Source: Norana najaformis
Lineage: Eukaryota; Annelida; Clitellata; Crassiclitellata; Hormogastridae
Length of the DNA stretch: 64,000 nucleotides
Reading direction: 5' to 3'
Assembly (NCBI GenBank): GCA_964023275.1
Contig: OZ029923.1
Span: 7,223,729-7,287,728, forward strand
Every line of letters begins with the position of its first letter. Within the stretch, counting starts at the first letter, position 1. Shown piece after piece: positions 6,638-62,943 of this stretch. Below the pieces are notes generated by a model, which searched no databases, was not told where the DNA came from, and worked only from the letters and a program-made list of their open reading frames with translations. The translations under genes were made by a program, and so were the position numbers.

Positions 6638-7034
6638 CTGTGGCTGAGTGTCTGTATGCGGCTGATGGGAGCTTGAACTTGATTCCAGGGCCTCAACTGC
6701 GGCGGCAGCAACGACAACAGAGGATACCGGTGGATTATCATAGTCGGCCTTCATCTCTTCCTGTGCATGAACGTCTTTCACTGTTACCTCAACGTTATCC
6801 TTCGGAGGGTCGACGACAATTACAGGATGCTGATCAGCATGCACAGCTGCTGCAGCAACTGAAGTTGATTCGGTTTCAACGACCTTGGCGAAGGTTGACA
6901 GTTCCACCGCTTGTCCAGCATCCCCAGCTGGACCGTGTTCACCAAGTTCGATATCATGAAGTACGATTTCTTTGTCTGCATCCTTTACCTTCGGCTCTTT
7001 ATATGGTTCTGGACGTTGTTTTTGTTCTTCCAGC
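6638..7034 (-). CDS. Mucin gene A: cytoplasmic-tail exon
   Basis: This 397-nt exon encodes the intracellular tail of a transmembrane mucin-like protein. Its acceptor is a pyrimidine-rich stretch ending tttatccag and its donor is CCACAG|GTGAGA. It completes a Leu codon from the previous exon and ends in phase 0. The 132 residues are acidic, with the block DKEIVLHDIELGEHGPAGDA followed by QAVEL, shared almost word for word with gene B (31,602-31,887); the core AVEL also appears in gene D. A 37-residue insertion relative to B carries YDNP, a possible SH2-type docking site (inference). The conserved donor in all three paralogues means a further 3' exon exists that I could not find. Confidence 0.85.
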
Positions 7035-7262
7035 CTGGATAAATACACGAATTACACATAGACATTGTAATAGATCACACCAGCGTCTTGTTAATTTCCT
7101 AATTATGTAATTCAGCTTAAGTTATAATAAAAAGAATTAAATTAACTTTCTTAAATTGCAGCATTATATAACGGTCAAAACTTGGATTAGTGCGTTAGTA
7201 CATTTTGCTTGCGATAATACGTCGCATTCCTGTCAGCCGCAGTAGCGGCGGTACCTTGAAAT

Positions 7263-7560
7263 GTGATTACCACTCACACCTATCAATACTTCCCTAAGTC
7301 GTCTGCTTGTCTTACTCTTGACGTTCCTGTAGCAAATACTGCTCTTAGTGACAAGGTTTTTGCTGTTGCTGGTCAAGGCTCTGGAATACACTTCCACAAT
7401 CTCTTTGCACTGTTTGGGCCCTTAGTGTCTTTTCATTCTCGACTTCAGGAGGTTTTTGTTGCAGCCTGCTTATCCTTTCTGTCTTATCGGACAGACCCTT
7501 GGAAATGACCGGATTGCGAATCTCTTTTACAATGCAATTGACTTATGCCTAGTGCATTCT
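7263..7560 (+). mobile_element. L2/CR1-type LINE 3' fragment (antisense, intronic)
   Basis: The plus-strand frame reads DKVFAVAG, then HSRLQEVFVAACLSF. This is a decayed version of the DKRAFSVAGPKFW...SFRSRLK ending of L2/CR1-like reverse transcriptases, which is also seen better preserved at 10,441-10,545. The copy lies in the intron between the tail and transmembrane exons of gene A, opposite in orientation to the gene. Confidence 0.6.
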
Positions 7561-8160
7561 TAGAATGACATCCTAAAAGGTATAATATGACAATAGTTTA
7601 AGTAAATTATAGAGAACACTTTTGTACATTACAAACTACTACATGATGAAAGGTCTTAATTTTATAGGAAGATTAAAAATATTATTCTACTGAATAAATT
7701 TGCTCTTTATTTTCACAATATCTTACGAGACCTTTTGTAAAGCGGAATATGCCATTTTTGTGCCTGCTTGCTTTTGTTTTCTGACCCCTGTGACCCATGC
7801 AAGCCTACGATTCCTCGCTCATGCAGCTGATGGACATATGGCGTGTTAACATATGCATTATTTACATTCTTTTAAAAATATTAGCGGTAACGGTGTGTGA
7901 TAGCTCAAATACGTGTTAAGCTATTGCTTACATATTCAAGGAAAACAGTAAATTGCTAGGTTTTCAGATTTTAAAATCTGCATCATATCTAGCAACGCTA
8001 ACTAGACAACTTAAGAGAAGGATTTTCAATGCTTCAATGTCTCCATCAGTGAAATAAAATGTTTGTAGCAAACAATAGATTCTTTCTTCAAATGTAAGTA
8101 TACAGACCTATTGATGACATCATAACGACAACAGTATTAATTACAGAAATAATGACATAC

Positions 8161-8322
8161 AAGTGATCGAATTCTTTGTCTTTCTTATTGAGCTTGCACC
8201 CAACAATGACAAGGGCGATGATTAGGCCGAGAAGAATAGCCGAACCAACTCCAGCCGATACTCCGATTATGATATTCTCATCCACGCAACTGTCTCCCAC
8301 AGGAAGATAGTTGTCTTTGCAA
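8161..8322 (-). CDS. Mucin gene A: EGF end plus transmembrane exon
   Basis: This 162-nt exon runs from acceptor ttgtttag to donor ACTT|GTATGT. It begins with the last part of an EGF-like module (CKDNYLPVGDSC). After VDEN follows a hydrophobic stretch of about 23 residues (IIIGVSAGVGSAILLGLIIA, then LVIV), a single membrane-spanning helix. A basic stop-transfer KLNKKDK comes next, so the N-terminus is outside the cell. Gene B has an exon of identical length (32,273-32,434) and gene D a slightly shorter one (62,034-62,189). Both ends are in phase 2 in all three. The Gly-rich helix could support packing of helices. Confidence 0.9.
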
Positions 8323-8933
8323 CTAAACAAACGAAACCAATTCATTGTCTCCTTGAATATTTATTATTATTGTTATTGTTGTTGATGCTGTTGTTGCTCT
8401 TGTGTGGTCATAATCACTTTATTACGGTTAAAGTCGCCTAGCCTAGCTTGGGTCGTTCTGGTAGACGGCAGAGTCCATCGTTCTCTGCTGAAGACAATAT
8501 GCGCCATCTGAGAAAGAAATTTGCCTGTTGGCCGAAATAGGGCTCAGCTAAACAAACATACTTGGTAACGCAATGTGTCGCTTGGTCTTGTTGGAAATGG
8601 TGACTGACGCCGAGCTGTCCTCACTCTCAAAAATAGTATCGAGATTTTAATAATAACGCCTTTCAGTATCTCACAAAACGCTGCATAGGCTAAGCTAAAT
8701 GGCCGTTATCAAAACGTTCACCAGTAAGCAAACAGTGGCTTGATAAGTAGAAAAGTCGCCGTTGGAGTCTCACGGTCAAACGCAATACCCAACCGATGGA
8801 TTCTCACTAAGAGTTCGCAAATGACACCATGTTCAGCATCTTCTGGACAGTGCTGCGTCGATGATGTGGAAGGACGACGGTCGATGATGTTATATTATGG
8901 TATCAGCTGTAAACAAACTTCAGATCTACTTAC

Positions 8934-9099
8934 GTGCATCCAGCCGTATTGTCACCTGTAACAGTACAGATTTCATTTTCCGAGCAATCATTGTGGCAGG
9001 CGACAGGGTCACCAAACTGTTCATCCTTGACACAGGGATTGCAGATCGGGCAGACATACTGTCCAATCGTTATGCACGGATCATTCGTGAATGTCGAAA
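8934..9099 (-). CDS. Mucin gene A: cysteine-rich EGF-like exon
   Basis: This 166-nt exon lies between acceptor ggtttatag and donor GCAC|GTAAGT. It encodes about 55 residues: NDPCITIGQYVCPICNPC, then ACHNDCSENEIC, then a spacer to GC. Joined to the next exon it gives the C-x-C and G-x-x-C end of an EGF-like fold (GCTCKDNYLPVGDSC). Exon position, length and cysteines are conserved in B (33,979-34,150), C (46,799-46,970) and D (62,781-62,943). An EGF-like module next to the membrane is usual in MUC3/12/17-type mucins, where it sits beside the SEA domain. The short plus-strand ORFs here are antisense shadows. Confidence 0.88.
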
Positions 9100-9373: not shown

Positions 9374-9401
9374 ATATATATATATATATATATATATATA
9401 T
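9374..9401. repeat. (TA)n microsatellite
   Basis: An uninterrupted run of about 14 TA units in an intron of gene A. A similar run lies at 13,019-13,044. Confidence 0.9.
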
Positions 9402-9615
9402 GACTGTCTCTGTCCTAGGTTTCGAACTAACATACTAGCGTAACTTGCTATGTATTGACGATGACTTAATAATTAGGTCTAATATGCCAAAATAAATTGC
9501 AGTAATAAATTACGCCTACCATAAAAAGAAATGTTCAGTCGTTATTGAGCGAAACAGTCATCTTAGTCCACGCACTCAAGCATTATATATAAATGGTAAT
9601 TATTCGTTTAGTGCT

Positions 9616-10690
9616 TTGCGGACATTTGGTGTTCCACAGAGTTCCGCGCTTGGCTCTCTTTTGTTTTCACTAAACACTACACCATACGGTACATTACTAG
9701 ACAATCATTCATTAGGATATCACTTCTATGCTGATGATACTCAAATGTACATCTCTTTTGACAGTTTGTCTAGTCATTCATCTGTGCAGGTGTTTTCCAC
9801 TGCATTTGAAGAGGTGCAGTCTTGGATGGCGGCCAATAAACTCCACCTTAACTCATCAGAAACTGAATTTATGCTCCTGGGCACTCCACGGCAGCTTAAG
9901 AAGTGTGTATGGCTTAAATCTTTAAAATTGGGTGATTCACTCGTGGAGTTGGTTGATGCTGCTGGTAACTTGGGCGTTCTGTTTGATTCTACTATGCCTC
10001 TCACCAACTATATGAATGGAATTTGTAAGTCATCGTTTATGAGTATTCGTGACATACACAGAATTCGGCAATATATCCCTAAGGCTTCAAGGATATCTCT
10101 AGCAAACGCATTGATCTCCAGCCGCCTTGAATATAGTAACTCGCTTCTTACCGGTATAACAAAGTCAAACATGCAGAAACTTCAAAGAATAAGAACCCTT
10201 TGGCTAGAGCCAAAACTGTTATATCAAAAACATGCGCATATAACCTCTGCACTTAAATCCTTGCTTTAGCTACCTACTCAGCAAAGAATTTCTTTTAAAT
10301 TGAGGCTTATTGTTAACAAAACATTGAACACTGAACGCGCACAATACATAATATAAGTTCTCATTTCTCAAACTCATCATTATTCAAACAGATCGTCTGA
10401 GTGTCTTTTTCTTGTTGTGCCAGAAACTAGAACTGTTCTTGACAAGCGAGCTTTTTCGGTTGCTGGGCCGAAATTTTGGACTTCTCTTCCTGCATCAGTG
10501 CGTTATGCCCAGTTTCTTATGTCGTTTCGTTCTCGATTTAAGACTTAGCTTTTTCAGTTGGCTTTTCCGCCACAGGCTGCCTCTCCGTCTTAGTGGACTG
10601 ATCTTCTGGATTTTGACCTAAATGCGGCTTAAATTCTATGCGCCATCGGTTGATGCCTTGCGCATTAGAACTGGCGCTCGAGAAGTTTCT
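9616..10690 (+). mobile_element. L2/CR1-type LINE, 5'-truncated (antisense, intronic)
   Basis: The plus-strand frame of 217 residues (9,616-10,269) shows reverse transcriptase palm and thumb features. GVPQSSALG is the altered GVPQGS motif, followed by GYHFYADDTQMY with the catalytic Asp pair, then NKLHLN and NLGVLFDS. After a stop, the C-terminal segment continues in another frame at 10,441-10,545 (DKRAFSVAGPKFW, then SFRSRFK). The 3' end near 10,640-10,690 (catcggttgatgcc, then ggcgct) resembles the tail of the SINE at 4,731-4,915. The element is dead: it lacks its endonuclease half and has at least two frame breaks. It lies antisense in the intron between two extracellular exons of gene A. 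Confidence 0.85.
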
Positions 10691-10785: not shown

Positions 10786-10967
10786 TTTGGGAAATGGACG
10801 AATTAGTCATTGCTGCAAGACTGTCATTCAATGCATGAGTGCCGTTGAAGTCTGTAGTTGCAAGGAGTTGTACGGTGTCATTGCCTATATAGTTTATTAC
10901 TGCTTCACTGTTCGTTAGAATTTGTTGGTTGTCAAAGGATGTGTTATATGTTGCAAATGTAAAGTTG
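10786..10967 (-). CDS. Mucin gene A: extracellular exon (NFTFA), SEA-like candidate
   Basis: This 182-nt exon lies between a conserved pyrimidine tract ending actttag and donor CAAA|GTGAGT. It encodes 60 residues starting (S)NFTFATYNTSF, then ILTNSEAVINYI, and ending AAMTNSSISQ, with several N-glycosylation sequons. B (34,917-35,098) and C (47,737-47,918) have exons of identical length and phase that begin NFTFASSNTEF. The pattern of a beta-like strand, a polar gap and a helix before the cysteine module would suit the second half of a SEA domain. I see no classical GSVVV cleavage motif, so this is a guess. The exon that should precede it, ending in phase 2, was not found. Confidence 0.8.
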
Positions 10968-13447
10968 CTAAAGTTTGAAATAAAAGCAAAGACATTTAGA
11001 CATTTAGCAGTACAAAAGCATAAATCGACAGGTGCAATAGGTATATCACTATAGAGTTTTCATTATGATAGGGCCACACTAATCGTAATCGTAAATCGCA
11101 AATTACGCATTTCTACACTGCCCAGTAGGCCAAAGCATTGAAAATAAAATCGATAAGGTAGCTTGAGTCAGGTTCAGGTTCAAGTAAAAGGCTACGGTGG
11201 ATGGTGTCGGGAGTTATAGCGAAGAAGTTAGAAGATCAGAACAGGAAGAGTTTTGGAAAGAAGTAGGTAAGCGATTCATAAATTCGTTTAAAGATGATTG
11301 CACATACTTGCATGAAACGATTTCGGACATTCGATGCATTTTAGTTTCACGATCTTAACAGTATCTGTGCTATCATGAACTCAGCGGGGCTGGTACGGAC
11401 ATTTATCTCAAATTAGCAATTGGAAAGATGTTGAATAATTCTTGGACGTATTAGTTCAGAATCCTAACTCTCGCGTAGTCAAATAAACGCATTTAAAGGC
11501 TGTCTACAGAAATGAACATTCATTACCACGAGTCATGTTAAAAAATAGCAGAAATGTTAACGAATTCTAGCTGATCAACTATTGTAAAGTGTTGTTAAGT
11601 CGATCATCTACATAAATATTCTTACATTAATGTTCACATTATATATAGGCCTAAATTTACAGTCGTGACCTGTATCCAAATGCGCCCACCAAGCAAGCCA
11701 TTTATCACTTTTTGCCTGACTAGCGGCGACTTTCTCTGCGATGATGGAAAATAGAATAATGTTAGGTTTAGTTTTATCTGTGCAATTTGCTTTGATAACT
11801 CAGCAGGCTAGAGAATGTACGCGAACAGTCAGCACACTTACAACAAAGCCCGTAAGTTGGTTTTAAGAGATGGTGTAAAATGTTTTGCGAAATATCATTC
11901 TGATAGAAAGAGTCGTGATATTCTGTAGCGTGCTGTTCTGTCGCTGAAAAAGATCTTTTAGCTTCTTATTGTACTCACTCGGTACTTGTATCCAACTCAG
12001 TAATTTGTTCCAAATAGGTCAAGGATCGCACTCGCCGTTGTGTTTTCTCACTCCCTTGCCTGCCGATTATAAAACAGTGTGTTTTAAATATAAGCTAGTA
12101 ATTCTGATGGATTTCGAGTGCTTGTGTGGACTGTTGAAACTACTTTTCATCAAAGCTATTAATGGCATTTAAAGAGAAATGAAACTGAAATGAACACCTT
12201 GCGTCATGGCTAAAATTTAACATTAAAATTTACATCAACGTTTCCTTTAAAAATGAAATATCAATAATTTAAGATATATGCTATATGACGTTTAATGGCA
12301 TCAACGTCATATTTTGCCGAAACATAACATAATATAATTATTTATTAGTCATAAGTGGTTTTCATTTCTTCGCTCGAATTCGAGACAAAGGTCTAAGGTT
12401 TTTAAATTTGATGTTGAAATCGATTTTTTGCATAAACATAATCTCAGTTAGTTTAGTGAATAGTAAATATAGAGCAGTGCTGCTTGCATACGCAATACGA
12501 GATTTTAGGTTTTTGAGGATATTACATGTTTGAATATGATAACTGTGTGAATGAATAACATAGGTTGGCTGAGGAGGAGACAGTCTTTACAGGTTCCATC
12601 AATGCGCTATATTAATGTTCTAATACATAGCTAGCTCTATATGTTTAAGCACTGACAGATATTGTATAACAAATCATGTCTATCCAGGACGTCATGACGC
12701 TGGAAGAGTACAAACGTATAACATAATGTGTCACAAGAGGTAGACTAGGGTAGAGGCCGGCCCACTTTTCGTACTTGATGTGGTAGCATTATAAAATTGA
12801 TGGTGCTGGAGATTGATGTAATACATGGCTAAGAGTCTGCAGTCGATTTTTAGCGTCCGTTATAGCCACTGTGCACAATGCAAGGCGGATTCTTTGATAA
12901 TAATAGAGTAAAATTTTGGGTCTAAAAACTTAACTAGTTTACAAAGTTCAACATTTTAATACTATAGAATAGGTAACTGCTTCCGTGTTTGATTCAGCCA
13001 TAGATCTAGAAATAAAGATATGTATATATATATATATATATATACAAAATTGTATTTTCGAAATAATGGGATTTAGCATGTTGGTTTATTTCATTCTAAA
13101 CAGGTGTACAAATGTAAAGAACATTGTTCTGCGTCAAGATTTTCATGAATAGGTTACAGACACGTACCGAAATGATGTGACCACTACACTGTTGTTTTTG
13201 TATCCAGGACATTTCTCGAACGCTTTGTTGATCTTCAAAGACAAGTGTGTGCAACAGAAGAAATATTAAAATATGTAATAACGAAATGTAGACTTAAGTT
13301 TTTTTTAAAGACGGCAATGATACAAAAATCCAACTAGAGACAATGTTGAGAATCACGATCATGATACTGTAAGCATTAGGTGTGCGATTTTTATTTTTAA
13401 ATTATTTCAAGTTTATTTAAATTGGTTGCTAATTTCAAGCATATTGT
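10968..13447. other. Large intron region of gene A, weak exon candidate only
   Basis: No well-supported exon was found. One candidate, minus strand about 11,741-11,676, follows a good acceptor (ttttccatcatcgcag). It reads KVAASQAKSDKWLAWWAHLD before a GT, but no paralogue supports it. Otherwise the stretch is AT-rich, with a (TA)n run at 13,019-13,044. Confidence 0.4.
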
Positions 13448-13666: not shown

Positions 13667-13794
13667 CTCTTTCTGTACAGTGATTTTAAATGAAATACAT
13701 TCACTGCCACTTTGGCAGTTTTCGTCTGTAAAGTCTTCAGACCAACTTTTGTCGAATCCAATGTCGAAAGTCATATTGAATAGAGGAGCTGCAC
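13667..13794 (-). CDS. Mucin gene A: extracellular exon, possible SEA start
   Basis: This 128-nt exon lies between acceptor attgttatag and donor AAAGAG|GTTAGG. It completes a Gly codon (phase 1 in) and ends in phase 0. The 42 residues read AAPLFNMTFDIGFDKSW, then SEDFTDENCQSGSEC, then ISFKITVQKE. The order of a beta-strand, an N-linked site, a Trp-containing turn and a second strand or helix resembles the beginning of SEA domains in membrane mucins. That assignment is by eye only. The phase fits the linker exon at 14,823-14,906 exactly. No equivalent was seen in B or C. The plus-strand ORF here is a shadow. Confidence 0.6.
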
Positions 13795-14822: not shown

Positions 14823-14906
14823 CAAAATTTGGCTTCTGATAGTCTGGTGGAAGCGTTGTAGTAAGAATCGTCGTAATTGAAGAAGTTATCTGATCTGTTG
14901 TTTCGC
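14823..14906 (-). CDS. Mucin gene A: Thr-rich linker exon
   Basis: This 84-nt exon lies between a clear acceptor (ttttttgtcag) and donor TTTTG|GTAACT. It is phase 1 at both ends, so it can be skipped or added without changing the frame. With the Gly codon completed from the mucin exon it reads GETTDQITSSITTILTTT, then LPPDYQKPNF. This is a Thr/Ser-rich stretch suited to O-glycosylation, connecting the repeat array to the folded membrane-proximal part. Phase agreement with the array exon's donor at 16,957 and with the next exon at 13,794 supports the model. Confidence 0.65.
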
Positions 14907-16956: not shown

Positions 16957-19900
16957 CTGGTGAAAGCGTCTTCATACTACTTGATTCCTTGATTGTAGTA
17001 TAATAAGGCGTTGAAGTGACAGAAAGCGATGGTGCATCGGTCCCAGTTGCAGTTGCCGTTGGTTGTGCAACGGCTGAAGTGACAGAAAGCGATGGCGCAT
17101 CGGTCCCAGTTGCAGTTCCCGTAGGTTGTGCAACGTCTGAAGTGACAGAAAGCGATGGTGCATCGGTCGCAGTTACAGTTGCCGTAGGTTGTGCAACGTC
17201 TGAAGTGACAGAAATCGATGGTGCATCGGTCCCAGTTGCAGTTGCCGTTGGTTGTGCAACGGCTGTAGTGACAGATTGGGATGGTGCATCGATCGCCGTT
17301 GTAGTTGCCGTTGGTTGTGCAACGGCTGAAGTGACAGAAAGCGATGGTGCATCGGTCGCAGTTGTAGTTGCCGTTGGTTGTGCAAGGGCTGAAGTGACAG
17401 AAATCGATGGTGCATCGGTCCCAGTTGCAGTTGCCGTTGGTTGTGCAACGGCTGTAGTGACAGATTGGGATAGTGCATCGATCGCCGTTGTAGTTGCCGT
17501 AGGTTGTGCAACGGCTGAAGTGACAGAAAGCGATGGTGCATCGGTCGCAGTTTTAGTTGCCGTTGGTTGTGCAACGGCTGAAGTGACAGAAATCGATGGT
17601 GCATCGGTCGCAGTTGCAGTTGCCGTTGGTTGTGCAACGGCTGAAGTGACAGAAAGCGATGTTGCATCGGTCGCAGTCGCAGTTGCCGTTGGTTGTGCAA
17701 CGGCTGAAGTGACAGAAATCGATGGTGCATCGGTCGCAGTTGTTATTGCCGATGGCTGTGCAACGGCTGAAGTGACAGAAAACGATGGTGCATCGGTCCC
17801 TGTTGCAGTTCCCGTTGGTTGTGCAACGGCTAAAGTGACAGAAATCGATGGTGCATCAGTTGCAGTTGCCGTAGGTTGTGCAACGGCTGAAGTGACAGAA
17901 ATCGAAGGTGCATCGGTCGCAGATGCAGTTCCCGTTGGTTGTGCAACGGCTGAAGTGACAGAAGCCATGGTGCATCAGTTGCAGTTGCCGTTGGTTGTGC
18001 AACGGCTGAAGTGACAGAAATCGATGTTGCATCGGTCCCTGTTGCAGTTCCCGTGGGTTGTGCAACGGCTGAAGTGGCAGAAATCGATGGTGCATCGGTC
18101 GCAGTTGCAGTTGCCGTTGGTTGTGCAACGTCTGAAGTGACAGAAATCGATAGTGCATCGGTCGCAGTTGCAGTTGCCGTTGGTTGTGCAACGGCTGAAG
18201 TGACAGAAAGCGATGGCGCATCGGTCGTAGTCGCAGTTGCCGTAGGTTGTGCAACGGCTGAAGTAACAGAAATCGATGGTGCATCGGTCGCAGTCGCAGT
18301 TGCCGTAGGTTGTGCAACGGCTGAAGTGACAGAAAGCGATGGTGCATCGGTCGCTGTTGCCGTTGGTTGTGCAACGGCTGAAGTGGCAGAAGGCGATGGT
18401 GCATCGGTCGCAGTTGCAGTTGCCGTTGATTGTGCAACGTCTGAAGTGACAGAAGGCGATGGTGCATCGGTCGCAGTTGCAGTTGCCGTTGGTTGTGCAA
18501 CGGCTGAAGTGAGAGAAATCGATGGTGCATCGGTCGCAGTTGCAGTTGCCGTTGGTTGTGCAACGGCTGAAGTGACAGAAAGCGATGGTGCATCGGTCGC
18601 AGTTGCAGTTCCCGTTGGTTGTGCAACGGCTGTAGTGACAGAAATCGATGGTGTATCGGTCCCAGTTGCAGTTGCCGTTGGTTGTGCAACGGCTGAAGTG
18701 ACAGAAATCGATGGTGCATCGGTCCCAGTTACAGTCGCCGTTGGTTGTGCAACGTCTGAAGTGACAGAAATCGATGATGTATCGGTCCCAGTTGCAGTTG
18801 CCGTAGGTTGTGCAACGGCTGAAGTGACAGAAAGCAATGGTGCTTCAGTTGCAGTTGCCGTTGGTTGTGCAACGGCTGAAGTGACAGAAAGCGATGGTGC
18901 ATCGGTCGCAGTTGCAGTTGCCGTTGGTTGTGCAACGGCTGAAGTGACAGAAATCGATGGTGTATCGGTCCCAGTTGCAGTTGCCGTAGGTTGTGCAACG
19001 GCTGAAGTGACAGAAATCGATGGTGCATCGGTCCCAGTTGCAGTCGCCGTTGGTTGTGCAACGTCTGAAGTGACAGAAATCGATGATGTATCGGTCCCAG
19101 TTGCAGTTGCCGTAGGTTGTGCAACGGCTGAAGTGACAGAAAGCAATGGTGCATCAGTTGCAGTTGCCGTTGGTTGTGCAACGGCTGAAGTGACAGAAAT
19201 CGATGGTGCATCGGTCCCTGTTGCAGTTCCCGTAGGTTGTGCAACGGCTGAAGTTGCAGAAGGCGATGGTGCATCGGTCGCAGTTGCAGTTCCCGTGGGT
19301 TGTGCAACGGCTGAAGTGGCAGAAATCGATGGTGCATCGGTCGCAGTTGCAGTTGCCGTTGGTTGTGCAACGTCTGAAGTGACAGAAATCGATAGTGCAT
19401 CGGTCGCAGTTGCAGTTGCCGTTGGTTGTGCAACGGCTGAAGTGACAGAAAGCGATGGCGCATCGGTCGTAGTCGCAGTTGCCGTAGGTTGTGCAACGGC
19501 TGAAGTAACAGAAATCGATGGTGCATCGGTCGTAGTCGCAGTTGCCGTTGGTTGTGCGACGGCTGAAGTGACAGAAAGCGATGGTGCATCGGTCGCTGTT
19601 GCCGTTGGTTGTGCAACGGCTGAAGTGACAGAAATCGATAGTGCATCGGTCCCTGTTGCAGTTCCCGTAGGTTGTGCAACGGCTGAAGTGGCAGAAAGCG
19701 ATGGTGCATCGGTCGCAGTTGCAGTTGCCGTTGGTTGTGCAACGTCTGAAGTGAGAGAAAGCCATGGTGCATCGGTCGCAGTTGCAGTTGCCGTTGGTTG
19801 TGCAACGGCTGAAGTGACAGAAATCGATGGTGCATCGGTCGCAGTTGCAGTTGCCGTTGGTTGTGCAACGGCTGAAGTAACAGAAAGCGATGGTGCATCG

Positions 19901-21999
19901 GTCCCAGTTGCAGTTCCCGTTGGTTGTGCAACGGCTGTAGTGACAGAAATCGATGGTGTATCGGTCCCAGTTGCAGTTGCCGTAGGTTGTGCAACGGCTG
20001 AAGTGACAGAAATCGATGGTGCATCGGTCCCTGTTCCAGTTGCCGTAGGTTGTGCAACGGCTGAAGTGACAGAAAGCAATGGTGCATCAGTTGCAGTTGC
20101 CGTTGGTTGTGCAACGGCTGAAGTGACAGAAATCGATGGTGCATCGGTCCCTGTTGCAATTCCCGTAGGTTGTGCAACGGCTGAAGTGGCAGAAGGCGAT
20201 GGTGCATCGGTCCCAGTTGCAGTTGCCGTTGGTTGTGCAACGGCTGAAGTGACAGAAATCGATGGTGCATCGGTCCCAGTTGCAGTTCCCGTTGGTTGTG
20301 CAACGGCTGAAGTAACAGAAAGCGATGGTGCATCGGTCCCAGTTGCAGTTCCCGTTGGTTGTGCAACGGCTGAAGTGACAGAAAGCAATGGTGCATCAGT
20401 TGCAGTTGCCGTTGGTTGTGCAACGGCTGAAGTGACAGAAATCGATGGTGCATCGGTCCCAGTTGCAGTTGCCGTAGGTTGTGCAACGGCTGAAGTAACA
20501 GAAAGCGATGGTGCATCGGTCGCAGTCGCAGTTGCCGTTGGTTGTGCGACGGCTGAAGTGACAGAAAGCGATGGTGCATCGGTCGCTGTTGCCGTAGGTT
20601 GTGCAACGGCTGAAGTGACAGAAATCGATGGTGTATCGGTCCCAGTTGCAGTTCCCGTTGGTTGTGCAACGGCTGAAGTGGCAGAAGGCGATGGTGCATC
20701 GGTCGCAGTTGCAGTTGCCGTAGATTGTGCAACGGCTGAAGTGACAGAAATCGATGGTGCATCGGTCCCTGTTGCAGTTCCCGTCGGTTGTGCAACGGCT
20801 GAAGTGGCAGAAGGCGATGGTGCATCGGTCCCAGTTGCAGTTGCCGTTGGTTGTGCAACGGCTGAAGTGACAGAAATCGATGGAGCATCGGTCCCAGTTG
20901 CAGTTCCCGTTGGTTGTGCAACGGCTGAAGTAACAGAAAGCGATGGTGCATCGGTCCCAGTTGCAGTTCCCGTTGGTTGTGCAACGGCTGTAGTGACAGA
21001 AATCGATGATGTATCGGTCCCAGTTGCAGTTGCCGTGGGTTGTGCAACGGCTGAAGTGACAGAAAGCGATGATGCATCGGTCCCAGTTGCAGTTGCCGTA
21101 GGTTGTGCAACGGCTGAAGTGACAGAAAGCGATGGTGCATCGGTCGCAATCGCAGTTGCCGTTGGTTGTGCAACGGCTGAAGTGAGAGAAAACGATGGTG
21201 CATCGGCCGCAGTTGTAGTTGCCGTAGGTTGTGCAACGGCTGAAGTGACAGAAATCGATGGCGCATTAGTTGCAGTTGCCGTTGGTTGTGCAACGGCTGT
21301 AGTGAGAGAAAGCGATGGTGCATCGGTCGCAGTTGCAGTTGCCGTTGGTTGTGCAACGGCTGAAGTGACAGAAATCGATGGTGCATCGGTCCCAGTTGCA
21401 GTTGCCGTTGGTTGTGCAACGGCTGTAGTGAGAGAAAGCCATGGTGCATCGGTCGCAGTTGCAGTTGCCGTTGGTTGTGCAACGGTTGAAGTGACAGAAA
21501 GCAATGGTGCATCGGTCGCAGTTGTAGTTGTCGTAGGTTGTGCAACGGCTGAAGTGACAGAAGGCGATGGTGCATCGATCGCAGTTGCAGTTGCCGTTGG
21601 TTGTGCAACGGCTGAAGTGACAGAAATCGATGGTGCATCGGTCCCAGTTGCAGTTGCCGTAGGTTGTGCAACGGCTGAAGTGACAGAAAGCGATGGTGCA
21701 TCGGTCGCAATCGCAGTTGCCGTAAGTTGTGCAACGGCTGAAGTGAGAGAAAACGATGTTGCATCGGCCGCAGTTGTAGTTGCCGTTGGTTGTGCAACGG
21801 CTGAAGTGACAGAAATCGATGGTGCATAAGTTGCAGTTGCCGTTGGTTGTGCAACGGCTGTAGTGAGAGAAAGCGATGGTGCATCGGTCGCAGTTGCAGT
21901 TGCCGTAGATTGTGCAACGGATGTCTCGACGGTTGATGACATTGCATAAGTTATTGTCATATAAAGCAGAGGTAATCGGAAAAATTGATGCATTTGCAT
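16957..21999 (-). CDS. Mucin gene A: signal peptide and giant PTS-repeat exon
   Basis: The start codon at 21,999 opens with MQMHQFFRLPLLYMT, then ITYAMSS, a short basic head and hydrophobic core that look like a secretion signal. About 80 repeats follow: TSAVAQP plus TATAT(A/G)TDAPS(L/I)SV, 21 residues, or 19 where one TA pair is absent. The composition (mostly Thr, Ser, Ala, Pro; no Cys) is that of a heavily O-glycosylated mucin domain. The exon leaves the array as STPYYTTIKESSSMKTLSP and ends at donor CCAG|GTGAAT in phase 1. Near 17,966 a three-T run of the coding strand is two T, breaking the frame. This may be an assembly error, since the same variant elsewhere has three. If the intron were retained, the frame would end in a hydrophobic LIIILLVL segment. 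This strand and frame is preferred because only it has a signal, a sensible composition and a phased donor. Confidence 0.75.
17000..21925. repeat. Tandem array 1: 63-bp units with 57-bp variants, about 80 copies
   Basis: Near-identical units of 63 bases, with a minority of 57 lacking one 6-base step, are arranged head to tail. Differences cluster at a few codons: the Leu/Ile/Pro position of DAPSxSV, the Ala/Gly position of TAT(A/G)TD, and Ala to Asp before VAQP. Blocks are copied within the array. For example, 18,076-18,360 closely matches 19,321-19,600, and 18,740-18,850 matches 19,020-19,150. All units are multiples of three, so several frames on both strands stay open for kilobases. The 1,272-residue plus-strand ORF and the LHNQRQLQL-type minus ORFs are by-products. 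Confidence 0.95.
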
Positions 22000-29039: not shown

Positions 29040-29325
29040 ATAGCATGAACCACAATGACTACAATTTTACCGAGAACCACCATGCCTCTATACATACTTT
29101 ATCATACATCGCGTACATAACCTCAAACAAAAAATCACTACAACCAGATTCGAAACTTTGTCACACCACAACATCCACCATGTCTCCATCTTCAACACAA
29201 ACCACGACTGTTACCTTCAGAAACGTCACCATCCACCATGGACAGAACGACACTCTCCAGATCTCCAATGTTAACCCAAATTACGACCATTATTTCAGAA
29301 ACTTCATCAGTCATGTTGGGAAACA
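29040..29325. repeat. Degenerate 79-bp tandem repeat, paralogue of 978-1,290
   Basis: Segments such as acgactgttaccttcagaaa and acgaccattatttcagaaac recur at about 79-base spacing, matching the repeat in the downstream flank of gene A. Confidence 0.5.
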
Positions 29326-46180: not shown

Positions 46181-46270
46181 CACTGGCCAACACATAATTT
46201 GTTGCCTCAAATGTTAGAACTGTTTCTGGGTATATTTGACCTGCTGATTCCAGAAAAGGCACCAGTTTTC
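46181..46270. other. 90-bp junction sequence between two duplicated blocks
   Basis: Bases here match neither 24,030 onward nor 33,361-33,450. They sit exactly between the end of the array-type 5' flank and the start of copy C. They may be leftover sequence from the original locus or filler from the rearrangement. Confidence 0.6.
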
Positions 46271-46798
46271 TCCGCTTGGCCGTGGACAAATGCCACAGTG
46301 TGGTTAAGAACCGCAATCCACGAAGAAGAAAGGACCAAGCTTAGACCTACGGTATATAGGACCTAAAGCAGCAAAGGACCTAAGATAGAACCCTGTGGAG
46401 GATCAAGTGGAACCAAGGACCAGTCAGACAGTGTGGAACTAAATATTACTGCCTGGTTAAAGTATTGGCATCATTAATTGCAAAACGGATACGCCTTTGT
46501 TTCAAAAACATTTTAATCCTAAATTTTGACGAGAGTTCTGGTTCTTCATGAATAGAAATAAAAATACATAGGCAATAAGCATATGTAAATGATTAGGCCT
46601 ATATGTGACAGCGCACATTATTACAGGCCTATATATAAAAGTAGTTGTAGGTCTATGGTTCCACAGAAACATAACTGTAATTTGGGTAACGTAAGGTGAT
46701 ATCTGAGCATCACACAAAAGCTACGTCAGGGAGACCAGCTTAACTACTGACGCTATAGCAAAACTATTGCGCAAATAAGCTGCTTAGAAACAACTTAC

Positions 46799-46970
46799 AT
46801 GCACCCAGTTGTTTTTACGTCTATGACAGTACAGATCTGATACTCGTCTGTGCAGCTGGCATAGCAGGCGATGTCGTTCGGATTTTGTTTCGCATATGTG
46901 ACACAGAAATAGCATGGCGAACAAATATGTTGTCCAATCGTTGGGCATGGATCATTAGCGTAGTTTGTAA
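46799..46970 (-). pseudogene. Copy C: EGF-like exon of a partial gene
   Basis: Identical by eye to the EGF-like exon of gene B, with intact splice sites and frame. No transmembrane or tail exon follows in gene order. The next sequence downstream is the 5' flank of gene B at 46,180. A transcript from C would have to skip across the B start and array to reach B's membrane exons, or else make no membrane protein. I call it a partial gene copy. Confidence 0.6.
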
Positions 46971-47736
46971 CTGGAAGTAACAACCGTTGTTCACTCAATT
47001 TAGGACAACAATTGTTTGCTTTCGCTCCTAAATATTGAAAGCACGTAGACCTAAAGTAAAATTCAACACAAAAGGAAATTTTATGAAATTACCCTTATTT
47101 ATTTAATAGGAGTGAAATATACAAGTGACTTGACTGGAAAGTGTGTAGTTTTAGTGTAACATAACAGCAAAGTTGCGATCTCATCAATTTGTAGTATAAC
47201 CATATATGTGCGACAGTTTCAGAGAGAGGTTAATCAAAGGACATTATGGCTCGGCCATTAAGGAGGATAAATTCAGTAGATCTGAACTGATCAGTTTGCA
47301 AATTTTTCGGTAACTGAATTAGAGAAAAAGGCGATACGCCTAACAATTAATGATGAAAGATACTACAGGTGTGATCAATCTAATTATCTTGTACGTATGC
47401 ATGGGCTTAGTCACAGATGTGGATGATGATTTTGGTGCGCATTTTGCTTATACACCCTAAACACCCTACAGAGCGAAGACAAAAATGACTAATGCTATTC
47501 AAATAGAAGATTTGTCGGTGTTAGTCAAAATTAGGAAAATTTTCAATATTAAAAATTTTTCCCGCTACCCTAAAAATATAATGCGCTTTGTACATGTGAA
47601 TTTATATTGCAAGACACCCCTGTTATTAAAAGATATATTGAGACTTATTAATCTAACACGTTGTCAAAGAATACAGGAAAAATTATTGTAATGTTGTAAA
47701 TGTAACGAATTCGGTAGATACAGAAATAAAACTCAC

Positions 47737-47918
47737 TTTCAGATCTTGCTGATTTAGTCATATTGTCAACACTCTCTTCCAAAATCACATAGCCCATGAA
47801 ATCTGTATCTTTAAGGTATGAAGCAGCTGTCGTGTTTATATGGTTTGTAATAGCTTCAGTCCTTCCTATAACCTCTTTGCTCGCAAATTCGGTGTTGGAT
47901 GAAGCAAAAGTAAAGTTA
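47737..47918 (-). pseudogene. Copy C: NFTFA extracellular exon of a partial gene
   Basis: Identical by eye to the exon of gene B at 34,917-35,098, including its acceptor and its GTGAGT donor. The frame is open. See the EGF-like exon of copy C for the context. Confidence 0.6.
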
Positions 47919-48334
47919 CTAAATGTTGAAATAAACACGGACATCTAATATAACTCAATCTTACTACAACGAGACAGATAGTTCGTGCGAGATCAATCAA
48001 TTACAGAGCCTTTTATTTACGTTTGATTAATTTCTTTGAATTTAATTTAGAGGCGGCTGAACATACTCCACTTATCAGAAAATGTATAGAAAATACAGCC
48101 TTATCTTACACTTCTATGTCTTAACTTGTAAACCATAACAATAGCCTAAAACCTGCATATGTAAAATGTAGCTATGCGCTTTCCTTTGCGCGAAATCAAG
48201 CTCTTTACAGAAATGAGCGTTTATGCCTGGAGGCTTATTCAGAAATAGGATCAAGTGCCGACTAATATCAACCAGTCAGCTTTATAAATCTCCGTATTTA
48301 AATTTCAAAATAGGCCGATATTTCTAATTCTTAC

Positions 48335-48350
48335 CTGAAGCTAATGACAT
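48335..48350 (-). other. Short first-exon candidate of the array-free gene
   Basis: An ATG at 48,350 reads MSLAS and meets donor TCAG|GTAAGA in phase 1, the same donor used after the array in B. Upstream the frame is closed by a stop within about 30 bases, so a full signal peptide is not visible. It resembles the end of the exon candidate at 15,728-15,788 in gene A. It may show how the gene looked before the array was joined to it. Confidence 0.3.
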
Positions 48351-48365
48351 TGCAAACTTAGTAAC

Positions 48366-51050: not shown

Positions 51051-51885
51051 TAATGCAATAATTTATTATTTAGCCAACAAACTTTCAAGGCATGACAGTC
51101 TAGCTGTTTGTTCACTTGACTGTCAGAGGTTGGAAGATAAGTCCCTGCCAAACAGAAAGAAAAGTCAACATTCCTGTCTCATCAGCAAAATCTAACAAAT
51201 TCACTTAGGTAGTGAAAATACTGGGATTAATCACGCAGTTGATAGGCCTACACTCAGTGGACCTTGGTATGTTCTCATTAATTTCATGTAGTCACATCAG
51301 AATTGTCATCTCTGTGTATATCTTAATGCTCAATTTGCAAAGAATTGGTTGTACATTTGCATCTATACTATCTGGAGCCTATTGTTAAAAGTGATGCTAA
51401 ATGCAGTCGTCTTCAGTCACAGGACTCGGCACCATATGAATCTTCATCAAACTAAGATCACTTTACTCTTTACAGATATGTGGGGAAAACACCCCAACGT
51501 GTCTACTAGTGCTGAGCTAACCCTGTAAATGACCCTGGGGAACCGGTGATTTAAGAAATTGGGACAAGATTAGACGAAATTAGGAAAAGGAGACGATGGA
51601 ACCTCCATAAAGTTGGTTTGCCATTCCAATGTCTACACAAAATCTTATGCTTCCTATCCCTACACAAAACCTCAAGTTGGTTAAGCTACCTGATATGTAA
51701 TATGCTAAACTCTGAGAAAACAGCATTTCACCATATTTGGGCCATTTGGGCCACATTACGCAACAGATGATGCCTATCAAATCAATTTGACGGAGGGATG
51801 GGACGTGTCGGGGTGGCTACGCTAACCGCCTAGCTATCGCTCAGTGACAAGTAAAATGAAGCCATTCGATCAGTGATTCTCTCAC

Positions 51886-52011
51886 TTTGAGTGAAAAATA
51901 CCTCTGTGCATCCTTTGGAAATCCGAGAAAGCTCAACTTCTTCTTTCCTTTCACGTTACAGTATGTATTATTACAGTAAACAATGGCGCAACCCTCGTGA
52001 TTTGACGCCAT
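51886..52011 (-). CDS. THAP zinc-finger domain, first exon
   Basis: From the ATG at 52,011 the frame reads MASNHEGCAIVYCNN, then KKKLSFLGFPKDAQR, and meets a donor-like CAAA|GTGAGA. CxxxxC near the start followed by the (S/L)F-x-x-FPKD phrase is the N-terminal half of a C2CH THAP DNA-binding domain. The second half (Trp, then C-x2-H) must lie in a later exon, which I did not find. An alternative donor AGAG|GTATTT lies 16 bases upstream. It could be a host THAP gene or the N-terminus of the P-like element whose C-terminus lies at 50,549-51,050. Confidence 0.65.
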
Positions 52012-52186
52012 CCCTATCGTAGTCTTTCTAACCCCGTCACCGCAAGGTGCGGCCCTGTGCCCATTGATTACACGATTTTGCACGGCAAGTGGGCGGAGCT
52101 TCGTATCTGTCTACATATAAGAATCTGTGATATAAGAATCTGTGGTGACACCTCTTACAGCTCCGTGTTTACTCTAGACCACAACT
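52012..52186. promoter_or_regulatory. Putative bidirectional promoter between THAP and zinc-finger genes
   Basis: Only 175 bases separate the minus-strand THAP start codon from the plus-strand start codon at 52,187. The stretch is richer in GC and CpG than its surroundings (for example cgcaaggtgcggccc and gtgggcggagcttcg). It includes gggcgg, a GC-box-like site, and no clear TATA box. Both start codons are followed by the same bases, giving MAS. Inference from layout. Confidence 0.45.
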
Positions 52187-52203: not shown

Positions 52204-53497
52204 GTGAGACGTTACAACAACAAGCGGTATTCATTCAAATCTACAGCTACCAATCTTATAAAATTTATCGTTCGACAATCAGTTTTAACATTGGTCTGTC
52301 GACTGGATTTGTCTTTCATTATAATGTCGTATTAATTGTCCGTAGAAAGTTTCACAGAACGTGGGTTGGTCCCAGGACTAGCTTTTTCACTATCCGTCAT
52401 CAATACTGAAAAGTGTGCTCCCAAAATTTCTTCCCTGTTTCAAATATTTCAACACATTCTGTATCCATAAGATCTCTCAATTAATTGTTTTGCGCCTGCA
52501 ATATGTTTTGAAATTTTTATGTAGCATGAGTTTTTCTGAAACGTCCGTATCAGACTGCAACTCCATTCGGGTCTTGCTGAACGTTTAAACGTTCTTCATT
52601 TTAAATTCTTCATTTGAACGCGTTTTGACGCTTCTTTATAGACACCAAATCACCATTATTAATCCAGTCGCAATTATCCTTTAAGTTTGAAAATATAGTC
52701 GGTCTTTTTGCCAATTAATTGTGCTTATCATGGTGCCAGGCCATTATGTTATTGGTGTTGTTTAATTTAATCAACTGATTAATAATATTTAAACAACCAC
52801 ACAAGCAGTGGCGGCTCAGGAATGCTTGCGTGGGGGGCGAGAGAATTTTCTGGCAGTCAACCATGCACGGGCATGGCCTGAGGGTGCCGACATATGGCCA
52901 AGAGAGGCGCGGTGGAGGAGGGGCGAACTGCCATCCCATGTCTATAGCTAAATCCACCAAACCATTGTTTTGAAAAGGAATTTCACTACGTTTTTTACAA
53001 ATTTCCATAATCCTACAGGAATAGGTTCAGTGCAAAGGTGCACTGTCACACAGATTTGATCTATTTGGTCTGGAGTACCGCAACGACTGAAAGCTAAAAA
53101 TTATTTCCGGGCCTTTATACAAACTCCTCTGAAGTGGAATCCTGAGATCAAAGGATCCTTCAGCTGAGGTGTGAACACAACCACAAATATCCAAGAAAAG
53201 GACACTATTTTGAACCTATCAACCTGCATTGGTACCGATACTCTTAACCCACCGTTAAGGATGGAGGACTGAGTGGATGTCAGATGGCATGTATTATATT
53301 TTGCTTGGGTTTAAATAATAGTTTCTTTTAAGACATAACGTGTGACTGTTGAAAGGTAACATGCAAATACACACAAATTAACGTCTCTACTGAATGCTTT
53401 TGAATGGTTTTTTAGCATAATGTAAACAAGTGTGCCATTTTTGCCATTGTAAAGATCTTCCAGATTCGTGAGATATGTTTCATTTGATTGTTTGCAG
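52204..53497 (+). other. Intron of the zinc-finger gene
   Basis: GT..AG intron in the proposed model, ending in tttgattgtttgcag. No exon or transposon was recognised inside. Confidence 0.4.
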
Positions 53498-55055
53498 TCA
53501 GGTTAGAATACATACTGGAGAAAAACCATACAAATGCCAGTTATGCTCGAAAGCATTCTCAAGCATTTCCGTTTTCAAGACTCACATTAGAATCCATCCT
53601 AGGCAGAAATCATACCAATGCCTCTTATGCCAAAAAGCATTCGCACACCTTTCTTCTTTAAGGAATCACGTCAGAACCCATGCTGAAGAAAAGCCTTACC
53701 AATGCCAAGTATGTGAAAAAAGGTTTTGCATAACTTCCAGTCTTAAAAAGCATCTAAGAATCCATGCTGAAGAAAAGCCTTACCAATGCCAAGTATGTGA
53801 AAAAAGGTTTTGCATAACTTCCAGTCTTCAAAAACATCTAAGAATCCATACTGGAGAAAAACCTTACAAATGCCAGTTTTGCCAGAAATCGTTTGCACAA
53901 GATTCTCACCTTCGGGTTCATAAGAGAATTCATACTGGAGAGAAACCCTTTGAATGCCAAGAATGTCGAAAAAGATTTGCTGATTCTTCCAATTTAAAGC
54001 ATCATGCTAGAAGCCATAATAAAGACAAACCCTATCTGTGCATGTTATGTGAGAAATCATTTTCGCTTTCTGGTGGTTTGATATCTCACATGAGACTACA
54101 TCATGGACAGAAACCATTCCAATGCCAGTTATGCCAGAAAGTGTTCTCACACCTTTCGACGTTAAAGAATCATATCAGAACCCATACTGGAGAGAAGCCT
54201 TACCAATGCCAGGTGTGTCAAAAAACGTTTCGCATAACTTCCAGTCTTCAAAAGCATCTTAAAATCCATACTGGAAAAAAACCTTACAAATGCCAGTTTT
54301 GTCCGAAATCGTTTACACAACATTCTGATCTGTGGGTTCACAAGAGAATTCATACTGGAGAGAAACCATTTGAATGCCAAGAATGTCGAAAAAGATTTTC
54401 TCAGTCTTCCAGTCTAAAGCGACATATTAGAATCCATACTGGAGAAAAACCGTACGAATGCCAGTTTTGCCAAAAGTCATTTACAACGAATTCTGCTCTG
54501 GGGGTTCACAAGAGAACCCATACGGGAGAGAAACCATTTCAGTGCCAACAATGTCAAAAAAGATATTCTAATTCTTCCAGTCTAAAATGTCACATTAGAA
54601 GCCATACTGGAGATAAACCCTATCTGTGCCTTTTATGCCAGAAATCCTTTTCGCGCTCTGGTGATTTGACATCACACATGAGACTCCATACTGGACAGAA
54701 ACCCTACAAATGCCGGTTTTGCTCAAAAACGTTCGCGCACCTTTCGACTTCAAAGAATCACTTAAGAACCCACACTGGAGAGAAGTCTTACCAATGCCAG
54801 TTATGTGAAAAAAGATTTTCCCAGTCTTCCAGTCTACAGAGACATCAAAGAATTCACACGGGAGATAATCCTTATCTATGCCAGTTTTGTCAGAAATCAT
54901 TTTTAGAACCTAATGCTTTGAAGATGCATACGACACTCCATGCTATTGAGAAACCATACCAGTGCCAGCTGTGCTCGAAAGCATTCGCACACCTTTATAA
55001 GTTAACAAAACACATTAGAATCCATACTGGAGAGAAGCTTCCACAGAGCAATTAA
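53498..55055 (+). CDS. Poly-C2H2 zinc-finger protein, 18 fingers
   Basis: The exon follows acceptor tgtttgcag and runs open for 518 codons to a stop. It encodes 18 consecutive C2H2 fingers of the C-x2-C-x12-H-x3-H type, joined by TGEKP-like linkers. This is the form of a sequence-specific nuclear DNA-binding protein. No KRAB, SCAN, ZAD or BTB domain is visible. The fingers form a higher-order repeat of about six or seven. Fingers 2, 8 and 15 share AHLS/SHLS and NH(V/I/L)RTH, fingers 7 and 14 share KSFS and SG, and fingers 3, 4 and 9 share ITSSL. Fingers 3 and 4 are almost identical, a very recent duplication. Finger 7 has an extra His (RLHHGQKP). All metal ligands look intact, so the gene is probably functional. 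Its target is unknown. Confidence 0.9.
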
Positions 55056-61198: not shown

Positions 61199-61466
61199 CT
61201 GTGATTGACTTGATGATTGATCGGACCTCAAACTTCTGTCGGCATCAAAAGATGCCACACTCGAGGCCCTTTCCGCCATTCCTGCCGAGACTCCGTTGCT
61301 ATCAGCTTTCACCAATCTACCCTCGTTCATAGAAACATCATTGCTCGGAGTGAAGGTTTCCAGTTCCACGGCATTTCCTTCACCGTTCCTCGATGGTCTG
61401 TCTTCAACAGCTTCGACATCAGTATGAACGAAGATCGTTTCATAAGGCGCCGTGGGTGCGTCTGAC
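61199..61466 (-). CDS. Mucin gene D: cytoplasmic-tail exon
   Basis: This 268-nt exon runs from acceptor acacgatcag to donor TCACAG|GTAAAA, with phases as in A and B. It encodes 89 residues starting SDAPTAPYETIFVHTD, then EDRPSRNGEGNAVELETF and ending RSLRSDQSSSQSQ. It keeps the A(V/M)EL core, a Ser-rich end and the splice points, but little else of the A and B tails. PYETIF is a possible tyrosine phosphorylation site (inference). This is the most diverged tail in the window. Confidence 0.8.
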
Positions 61467-61545
61467 CTGATCGTGTAATTGTAATTGTAACTGTAATCAC
61501 ATAATTATTTGGCGCCTCTTCAAGACAGACTCATCAGAGGCGCTT
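61467..61545 (-). repeat. Dispersed repeat abutting the acceptor of gene D's tail exon
   Basis: On the gene strand the repeat reads gcgcctctgatgagtctg, then cttgaagaggcgcc, and ends in an attacaattac tail. The tail runs directly into the acceptor cgatcag. It is the same family as 58,685-58,755. The insertion seems to form part of the polypyrimidine/branch region of this intron. Confidence 0.5.
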
Positions 61546-62033
61546 TAGACCTGATAACAAAAGGTCATAATCAAACCCAATGATGCTTTGCAGTTTTTTA
61601 CAGAATAGATAATGAAAGACCAAGGAGCTACTGGCGGAGGTTACAAAGCAAACATATATCAGTATTAATCACGAAAATATGGATTAGCTTATGCGTTTCG
61701 ATTATCCTACTGCAAAGATAAGTTGAGCTATTTAATGTCTGGTAAATCCTTTACGCACAAATCTCTAGATTATATTTCCCACTTTGATATAAACTGCATA
61801 TGCTAGAAGTAGAGGAAGACTTTGCTGCCATATGTGGCATATTACAATTGCATCAAGACTATTAAAATGCCATTCCAAATGCACAACTTTAAAAATTGAA
61901 AAACTTTTGATGACAATAGACATGATCACGATAATTTATAGAAACTGATAACCAAGCATGACTGAGCTTTCATGACAACAGAGTCAAACGAATTAGTACT
62001 TGATATTAAATAATTAAATTAAAGTTGACATAC

Positions 62034-62189
62034 GTTATCTGGTATTTCTTTTTGTCGAGCTGACAGCAAAGGATGATAACAGCGATGACTAAACCAAGCA
62101 GGACGGCTGCAACGACCCCAACCGATACACCGATTATAACATTCTCATCCACACAGCCGTCGCCAACCGGTAGATAGTTGTCTTTGCAG
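62034..62189 (-). CDS. Mucin gene D: EGF end plus transmembrane exon
   Basis: This 156-nt exon runs from acceptor gttggtcag to donor ATAAC|GTATGT. It reads CKDNYLPVGDGCVDEN, then a helix of about 23 residues (VIIGVSVGVVAAVLLGLVIA, then VII), then the basic QLDKKKYQI. The length is two codons less than in A and B, with the same phases. Strong similarity to gene A in the EGF end and in the helix marks it as a true paralogue. Confidence 0.88.
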
Positions 62190-62780
62190 CTGACCAACAA
62201 GAAACGTATATTTAAAATTTGCGCATGAACGCCAACCAATCACAAACAAGGTAACAACCAGATAACGTATGAAAACTACGTGACAGAAAATTCGCCCCAG
62301 TGCGCGTTCGATGCGTGATAGCCAGATGCCTCCAGGAATAACAAGTACGTTATCAGTGCGTGCACAAACAAATCGATAATCCAATGACGTCACAGAAATT
62401 TCCGATACAACCGCGTGATTTTTCAACATTAGAAAAAATTACGTTTACATAATGGTTGTGTGTTTGTATCCGAATACTTATGTGCCGCCTTTCAAGTACC
62501 TCACAAAAGCGCTGGAACATGGCTACCTAAATATTCGTCATAAATTCGGTTCCAAATGTTTCTTTGCATTAACAGGAACCTATACAAATATACAGGAGCC
62601 GGTCTTCTAAGTCTTGGAGCAACTCTTCCTGAAACAACGCTTGTTAACAGCAACGAAACTACATGCAAAAATAGGCAAGATTTCAGGAATCATTGATTGA
62701 TTTATTGTTAGAATTTTCCAGCACCGCTATCTAAGACACGGAAAAGCGACACATGAAATGTAAGAGCGAGGTATACTTAC

Positions 62781-62943
62781 GTGCATCCGGTCGTGTTATG
62801 TGCGGTAACAGTACAGATTTTATAAGTATCCTTGCAAGTTGCGAGACAAGTGATATTCGTGGCTGTCGGGCTGTAGCACGGATAGCAGATGGAACAGATA
62901 TATGTTCCAATCATTTGGCACGGATTAGCTGTTAATTTCTGAG
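62781..62943 (-). CDS. Mucin gene D: cysteine-rich EGF-like exon
   Basis: This 163-nt exon lies between acceptor gatctttcag and donor GCAC|GTAAGT. It reads QKLTANPCQMIGTYICSIC, then YPCYSPTATNITC, then LATCKDTYKICTV and ending NTTGC. The eight cysteines align with genes A and B. The upstream exons (NFTFA module and any array) lie beyond the right edge of the window. Confidence 0.88.

Follow-up and report, generated by a model that had tools for sequence, protein, structure and literature searches.

Which proteins are encoded by the repeat-bearing genes on the minus strand of a 64,000-nucleotide (nt) stretch of contig OZ029923.1 (positions 7,223,729 to 7,287,728, called the window below), and are they relatives of the human membrane mucins? 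A preliminary description of this DNA had reported three gene bodies and one partial copy with common exons, and had likened their architecture to that of MUC3, MUC12 and MUC17. We analyzed the window and concluded that the loci, named A, B, B' and C here, probably belong to a tandem, lineage-specific family that encodes type I transmembrane mucins in an invertebrate. The exon series supports a tandem gene family predicted to encode a Cys-rich juxtamembrane module, one transmembrane (TM) helix and a cytoplasmic tail, which in gene A is joined in phase to Thr/Ser/Pro-rich repeats.

Shared Exon Series of the Tandem Loci

Loci A (3.9-22.1 kb), B (29.8-44.2 kb) and C (61.2 kb onward, extending beyond the window) form a tandem cluster on one strand within 64 kb, and the partial copy B' (46268-48352, minus strand) is a fourth member. 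The reported number of gene bodies and partial copies was confirmed, with AG acceptors and GT donors at the reported sites. The gene bodies do share the exon series, but it is complete from start codon to tail only in A; gene C is cut by the window end, although its Cys-rich, TM and tail exons are present. The 182-nt exon has this length in all three copies found (A, B and B'; a copy of C would fall outside the window). The Cys-rich exons of A, B, B' and C are 166, 172, 172 and 163 nt long, and the TM exons of A, B and C are 162, 162 and 156 nt. In every copy having the exon the splice phases agree: the 182-nt exon is 2-1, the Cys-rich exon 1-2 and the TM exon 2-2, and the tail opens in phase 2. 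In 3/3 copies the first tail exon is followed by a donor (Table 1), and it is therefore probably not the last exon; the stop that closes this exon was ruled out as the protein end for the same reason.

Exons were compared by tblastn against the 64-kb window with composition correction and masking off. The TM exon of A matched those of B and C with E-values of 3e-26 and 7e-22, and the Cys-rich exon with E-values of 8e-12 and 1e-10; the 182-nt exons of A and B matched at 5e-11. By blastn (E<=1e-6), the TM exons of A and B match, whereas no match covers the introns lying between the TM exon and the repeats. At that threshold the Cys-rich and 182-nt exons of the two genes do not match either; their likeness is confined to the protein level. 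Judged from these comparisons, the exon similarity between loci exceeds chance and the copies are true relatives.

To the extent that the Nei-Gojobori method can measure such distances, nonsynonymous divergence (dN) is lower than synonymous divergence (dS) outside the repeats. The dN and dS values of the TM exon are 0.11 and 0.53 (A-B), 0.19 and 1.91 (A-C), and 0.26 and 2.58 (B-C), the high values being rough. For the Cys-rich exon they are 0.41 and 1.68 (A-B), 0.49 and 0.80 (A-C), and 0.46 with a dS that is not finite (B-C). The tail gave 0.23 and 0.33 (A-B), 0.78 and 1.59 (A-C), and 0.89 and 1.40 (B-C), figures that include bases behind the donor.

The vertebrate genomes have an observed/expected CpG ratio near 0.2-0.3. 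The ratio in the window is 0.81 outside the repeat arrays and 0.91 overall, which is not vertebrate-like; the DNA is likely that of an invertebrate.

A Start-to-Tail Gene Model for Locus A

The preliminary description had proposed joining and translating the 3' exons. In A this succeeded: the repeat exon, e0, e1, e2, the 182-nt exon, and the Cys-rich, TM and tail exons are all in phase, and on these splice signals A is readable as a single gene, start codon and tail included. Exons e0, e1 and e2, which lie downstream of the repeats and ahead of the 182-nt exon, were absent from the earlier exon list. The repeat exon spans 5.1 kb and contains the start codon and 79 Thr/Ser/Pro-rich repeats of 21 residues. 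Its acceptor is strong, and so is its donor, the phase of which fits e0. The first ATG after the acceptor (21999) opens the repeat frame, giving MQMHQFFRLPLLYMTITYAMSS, and the 63-nt array follows at 17012-21920. The 245 residues encoded downstream of the repeat exon contain eight N-glycosylation sequons, and the modelled tail has 189 residues and a net charge of -21. The frame of the second tail exon continues beyond the proposed donor in A; the B equivalent meets a stop there.

Two other gene models were rejected. The A array as a separate gene stopping at 16868 (after MLIIILLVLRIFLERV) is contradicted by the strong donor that precedes the stop and the phase-matched exon that follows. A frame reading KFKTAEETIQH.. 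in the first part of the repeat exon opens behind a stop just past the acceptor and differs from the repeat frame. A reverse-transcriptase fragment lies on the plus strand within the intron that separates the 182-nt exon of A from its Cys-rich exon (9496-10266; RVT_1, E 1.8e-6; 28.2 bits, cut-off 29.6).

Ten cysteines of the Cys-rich module and a G-x3-G-x3-A motif in the TM helix (G75/G79/A83) are unchanged in 3/3 copies (A, B and C). A single helix (hydropathy 2.6, 2.6 and 3.2) is followed by basic residues and the tail in all three. The EGF-like domain of the preliminary description was examined by profile search. The module is EGF/TIL-like with ten cysteines, but all scores are below the Pfam cut-offs: A matched EGF_3 (E=0.00099, 19.7 bits against a cut-off of 28.5), C matched TIL (0.0069) better than EGF_3 (0.66), and B matched TIL only (0.1). 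We refer to it as a sub-threshold EGF/TIL-like module.

Table 1. Positions of exons and related features of the four loci (slash, exon/intron boundary).
Feature	Positions	Strand	Phase	Remarks
A repeat exon	16957-22076	-	ends 1	acceptor TTTTTCAG before 22076; donor CACCAG/GTGAAT
A exon e0, Thr/Ser/Pro stalk	14823-14906	-	1-1	GETTDQITSSITTILTTTLPPDYQKPNFG; found in A only
A exon e1, membrane-proximal domain	13667-13794	-	1-0	found in A only
A exon e2, membrane-proximal domain	13168-13232	-	0-2	ends PGYKNNSVVVTSFR; found in A only
A 182-nt exon	10786-10967	-	2-1	
A Cys-rich (EGF/TIL-like) exon	8934-9099	-	1-2	
A TM exon	8161-8322	-	2-2	last two Cys of the module and TM helix
A cytoplasmic exon 1	6638-7034	-		donor CAG/GTGAGA
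A probable cytoplasmic exon 2	3937-4065	-		acidic; ends LSKEDDDYAGFVPRLSTVDTKKE; 3' end predicted
B repeat exon	35543-44232	-		acceptor before 44232; ATG 44155; array 35543-44073, 136 units
B 182-nt exon	34917-35098	-		
B Cys-rich exon	33979-34150	-		
B TM exon	32273-32434	-		weak donor GTACGC
B cytoplasmic exon 1	31602-31887	-		donor CAG/GTGAGA
B probable cytoplasmic exon 2	29780-29875 (about)	-		predicted limits, from alignment
B' (direct duplicate of 33448-35532, 99.5% identity)	46268-48352	-		Cys-rich exon 46799-46970; 182-nt exon 47737-47918
C cytoplasmic exon 1	61199-61466	-		donor CAG/GTAAAA
C TM exon	62034-62189	-		
C Cys-rich exon	62781-62943	-		remainder of C beyond window end

Repeat Arrays and Their Coding Capacity

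The arrays were aligned to the 63-nt unit and hold 79 (A) and 136 (B) units of 21 residues. Ser, Thr and Pro together account for 48% (A) and 49% (B) of residues in the repeat frame, and the composition in A is T 24.6%, A 24.2%, S 14.0% and P 9.2%. The G+C content is 54% in the arrays vs 38% elsewhere. For stop codons, the null came from 500 redistributions of the observed substitutions. In A, none of the 1,629 codons of the repeat frame is a stop (null mean 8.1, minimum 1); in B, 1 of 2,840 is (null mean 14.8, minimum 5).

A number of observations weigh against the reading as translated mucin genes. Stops are also scarce in both other minus-strand frames of A, at 3 and 1 (null means 12.1 and 11.4; minima 5 and 4), and in one of B, at 3 (null mean 23.6; minimum 10), the remaining frame of B having 19 (null mean 20.7; minimum 10); one plus-strand frame is stop-free in both arrays. 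With variant types counted once, 0/4 possible stop-making types were seen in A (P=0.28) and 1/4 in B (P=0.56). The 6-nt indels (11 events in A, 5 in B) are of about two kinds and sit in a six-base microrepeat, and are therefore probably slippage that was later copied. A third-position excess is absent from the array variation. Each array has one frame-breaking 1-nt deletion, near 17964 in A and near 40902 in B, and B has its stop at 40775, so neither array is open end to end as assembled; a compensating +1/-1 indel pair at the B array edge is possibly an alignment effect. At ∼35535-35543 the B array abuts the intron sequence upstream of the 182-nt exon without an A-like donor, and the repeat frame runs into a stop at this junction. 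Exons e0-e2 were not found in B, and a dedicated search for e1 and e2, which admitted GTA and GTG donors only (A's own e1 has neither), gave no B candidate. In the 47.9-53.4 kb region and the last kilobase of the window its best scores were under the best of 10 simple shuffles; in the control, A's e2 scored 112 and the next candidate 6. Outside the arrays, the putative signal peptide of A is weak (best 11-residue hydropathy only 1.39), and the 182-nt exon is under weak constraint between A and B (dN 0.55, dS 0.76).

The stop deficit and the in-frame indels were withdrawn as coding proof because significance was lost when variant types were counted once, and the within-array stop and indel statistics are no proof of coding. 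That the repeats are coding is suggested instead by the in-phase splice chain from array to TM exon, the start codon, the composition and the single frame break per array. The two arrays have 2 full-length unit types in common, out of 63 in A and 76 in B; the best explanation appears to be that the arrays turn over fast while the Cys module, the helix and the splice phases are constrained. The B array also shows a higher-order duplication, 16/54 unit pairs being identical at a lag of 80 units (35543-44073).

Is the Family Decaying?

It is quite possible, if short of probable, that the family is in decay, A being the sole working gene and B and B' recombination pseudogene pieces, with C left unassigned. 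Gene B has no e1 or e2 that could be found, its array is fused to the intron, its TM donor is weak, and its array carries a stop besides the frame break; B' has no TM or tail exon (tblastn, 64-kb window). On the other side, the exons of B show dN lower than dS relative to A, with all ten cysteines and all splice phases kept, and the B array is longer than that of A with equally few frame breaks.

For the second tail exon, a search by A-C comparison found nothing. Downstream of A and B, far past the known exons, blocks are alike (896-1557 vs 28971-29627, 75%; 449-600 vs 28014-28168, 85%), for which 3' untranslated regions, further exons or regulatory DNA are candidate readings.

Is the Membrane-Proximal Domain a Divergent SEA Domain?

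A tentative alternative keeps the same family and takes the membrane-proximal domain (125 residues, spliced from e1, e2 and the 182-nt exon) as a divergent, non-cleaving SEA domain, which would extend the MUC3/12/17 design beyond vertebrates. The domain lies directly outside the Cys-rich module and TM helix, and its sequons and cysteines suit a folded ectodomain. Judged by eye against the SEA consensus, the way its hydrophobic residues are spaced is like that in the first half of SEA, and the stretch F-E-K-C-P-G-Y-K-N-N-S-V-V-V-T-S-F-R-N shows the same likeness. The searches point the other way, and the possible SEA domain of the preliminary description was not recovered. No PF01390 match was obtained at E up to 10 with four queries (A, B and two further cuts of A) holding all or part of the domain, although HMMER filters remove most matches above ∼0.1. 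A profile of A and B (two rows, one partial) aligned by hhalign to a small set of five SEA sequences gave a 0.2% probability and a score of 11.2, equalled or exceeded by 41/100 column shuffles; in positive controls against MUC16, MUC1 reached 45% and a transmembrane protease 90%. With so few sequences on both sides, a distant homology may have gone undetected. The 182-nt exon folded alone as one long helix, not the strand-first half expected of SEA, in an uninformative model (predicted template modelling score 0.32, mean predicted local distance difference test score 69). The Gly-Ser cleavage site is absent at the expected turn in A, which reads S-F-R-N-F-T-F (by eye, and meaningful only if the domain is SEA). 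We regard it as unlikely that invertebrates independently evolved or inherited tandem SEA-type membrane mucins with non-cleaving SEA domains.

Origin of the B/B' Arrangement

Upstream of the repeats, A and B share 96.9% identity over 2.1 kb; in 13 matched pieces of their 3' parts and beyond, the identity is 66-89%. The 2.1-kb direct duplicate (33448-35532 and 46268-48352) flanks a 10.7-kb block made up of the B array and its 5' flank. From this pattern, B may be a recent chimera in which the 5' half of an A-like gene was inserted in an older paralogue, with duplication of the 2.1-kb flank, or else an assembly artefact. A faulty assembly, or a copy placed here from another haplotype, seems a rather doubtful source of the arrangement. 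The discordant identities, the 99.5% identity of the duplicates and the difficulty of assembling long arrays would fit it. However, the junction at 35.5 kb has about two shared bases and the ∼88 bp at 46180-46268 match nothing else in the window, therefore neither junction lies within a long shared repeat; the few unit types common to the two arrays also speak against it.

Untranslated Minisatellites or a Mobile Element?

It appears improbable that the arrays are minisatellites that escape translation, with the conserved genes encoding short EGF-like TM proteins that lack a mucin part. Such a reading draws on the loss of significance once copied variants are counted once and on the frame break in both arrays. 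In A, however, the array lies between a strong acceptor with an in-frame ATG and a donor phased to the exon chain that reaches the TM exon; the frame is Thr/Ser/Pro-rich, and one frame break per array is all that was found. A mobile element carrying a minisatellite as the source of the shared exons, suggested by the large recent duplicated blocks and the reverse-transcriptase remnant nearby, is very improbable and was rejected: the exons form a multi-exon unit with conserved phases and a constrained protein, the TM exon occurs only three times in 64 kb, and the joined exons of the three genes hit no Pfam transposon family.

Other Features of the Window

Between B' and C, a plus-strand stop-to-stop frame of 527 residues (53472-55052) has 17-19 tandem C2H2 zinc-finger matches. 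A weak THAP-domain match (E 0.025, below cut-off) lies upstream of B' on the minus strand (51844-52110), and a low-complexity CTCTC-type tract of ∼650 bp (63210-63862) is found just upstream of the last visible exon of C. Rfam gave 0 matches and ARAGORN 0 tRNAs in the window. A PDB search with gene A gave four matches (E 0.64-1.6) and NCBIfam one (E 0.48), all judged to be chance, and of 33 pattern matches to viral contigs 0 were confirmed.

Comparison With Known Mucins and Proposed Function

Of the architecture in the preliminary description, the Pro/Thr/Ser-rich (PTS) repeats, which are probably translated, the single TM helix and the tail stand, with a weak putative signal peptide; SEA was not detected, and EGF stays sub-threshold. 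The human MUC3A, MUC3B, MUC12 and MUC17 genes are described as neighbouring membrane mucin genes at 7q22, and MUC3A and MUC3B as having a single large repeat exon of 15,873 and 39,267 bp, respectively (PMC9578598). As far as that description goes, the likeness is close: one large repeat exon followed by several small juxtamembrane exons, one TM helix and a tail, in neighbouring genes whose repeat number differs greatly between close paralogues. Unlike those mucins, no SEA was detected here, and the Cys module has ten cysteines with sub-threshold EGF/TIL scores. The repeat unit also differs: 21 residues, rich in Thr, Ala and Ser, against the 17 residues given for MUC3. We did not file the family in the MUC3/12/17 group because no SEA domain was found. 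The suggestion of an 'ancient version of MUC3/12/17' rested on architecture and found no support from homology; the best reading is that the family would work like MUC3/12/17, with membership not supported by homology.

By analogy, MUC13 and HEG are equally close architectural parallels. Both are described as having PTS, EGF and TM (PMC1552070), a likeness of described architecture only. HEG, in the same account, combines PTS and EGF, and SEA was not identifiable by its authors (PMC1552070). Chicken MUC13 differs in that its PTS region is reported there to be spread over many exons (PMC1552070). Among invertebrates, and compared by description, the sea anemone mucin1-like protein is likewise membrane-anchored and PTS-bearing, but it has a recognised SEA between PTS and TM, and its description, as far as it extends, does not mention a Cys-rich module (PMC9080433). 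Among the literature matches listed, no title concerned such an invertebrate family except the sea anemone paper; a listed paper on snail mucus mentions transmembrane mucins (PMC10475054).

The likeliest product would be a membrane-anchored, O-glycosylated component of the glycocalyx. In this scheme the first ATG of the repeat exon would begin a weak signal peptide, and the repeats would be translated into ∼1,650 residues in A (79 units) and ∼2,850 in B (136 units), densely O-glycosylated and standing off the membrane as a bristle. The membrane-proximal domain and the Cys module might form a disulfide-held base, the helix may pair via its small-residue motif, and the tail could connect to the cytoskeleton or to signalling. 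The result would be a glycocalyx whose height varies with repeat number, and the product probably shields the cell surface.

We regard the family as a new one of a familiar type. If the membrane-proximal domain were a non-cleaving SEA, the SEA-EGF-TM base of MUC3/12/17 would not be a vertebrate invention, and its mechanical role would be independent of autoproteolysis. The phase-matched cluster and its ten-cysteine base offer a handle on this question, since a solved membrane-proximal domain could decide between common descent and convergence. The locus also combines rapid array turnover with a constrained base, a pattern of the kind described in human mucins, in what is apparently another lineage.

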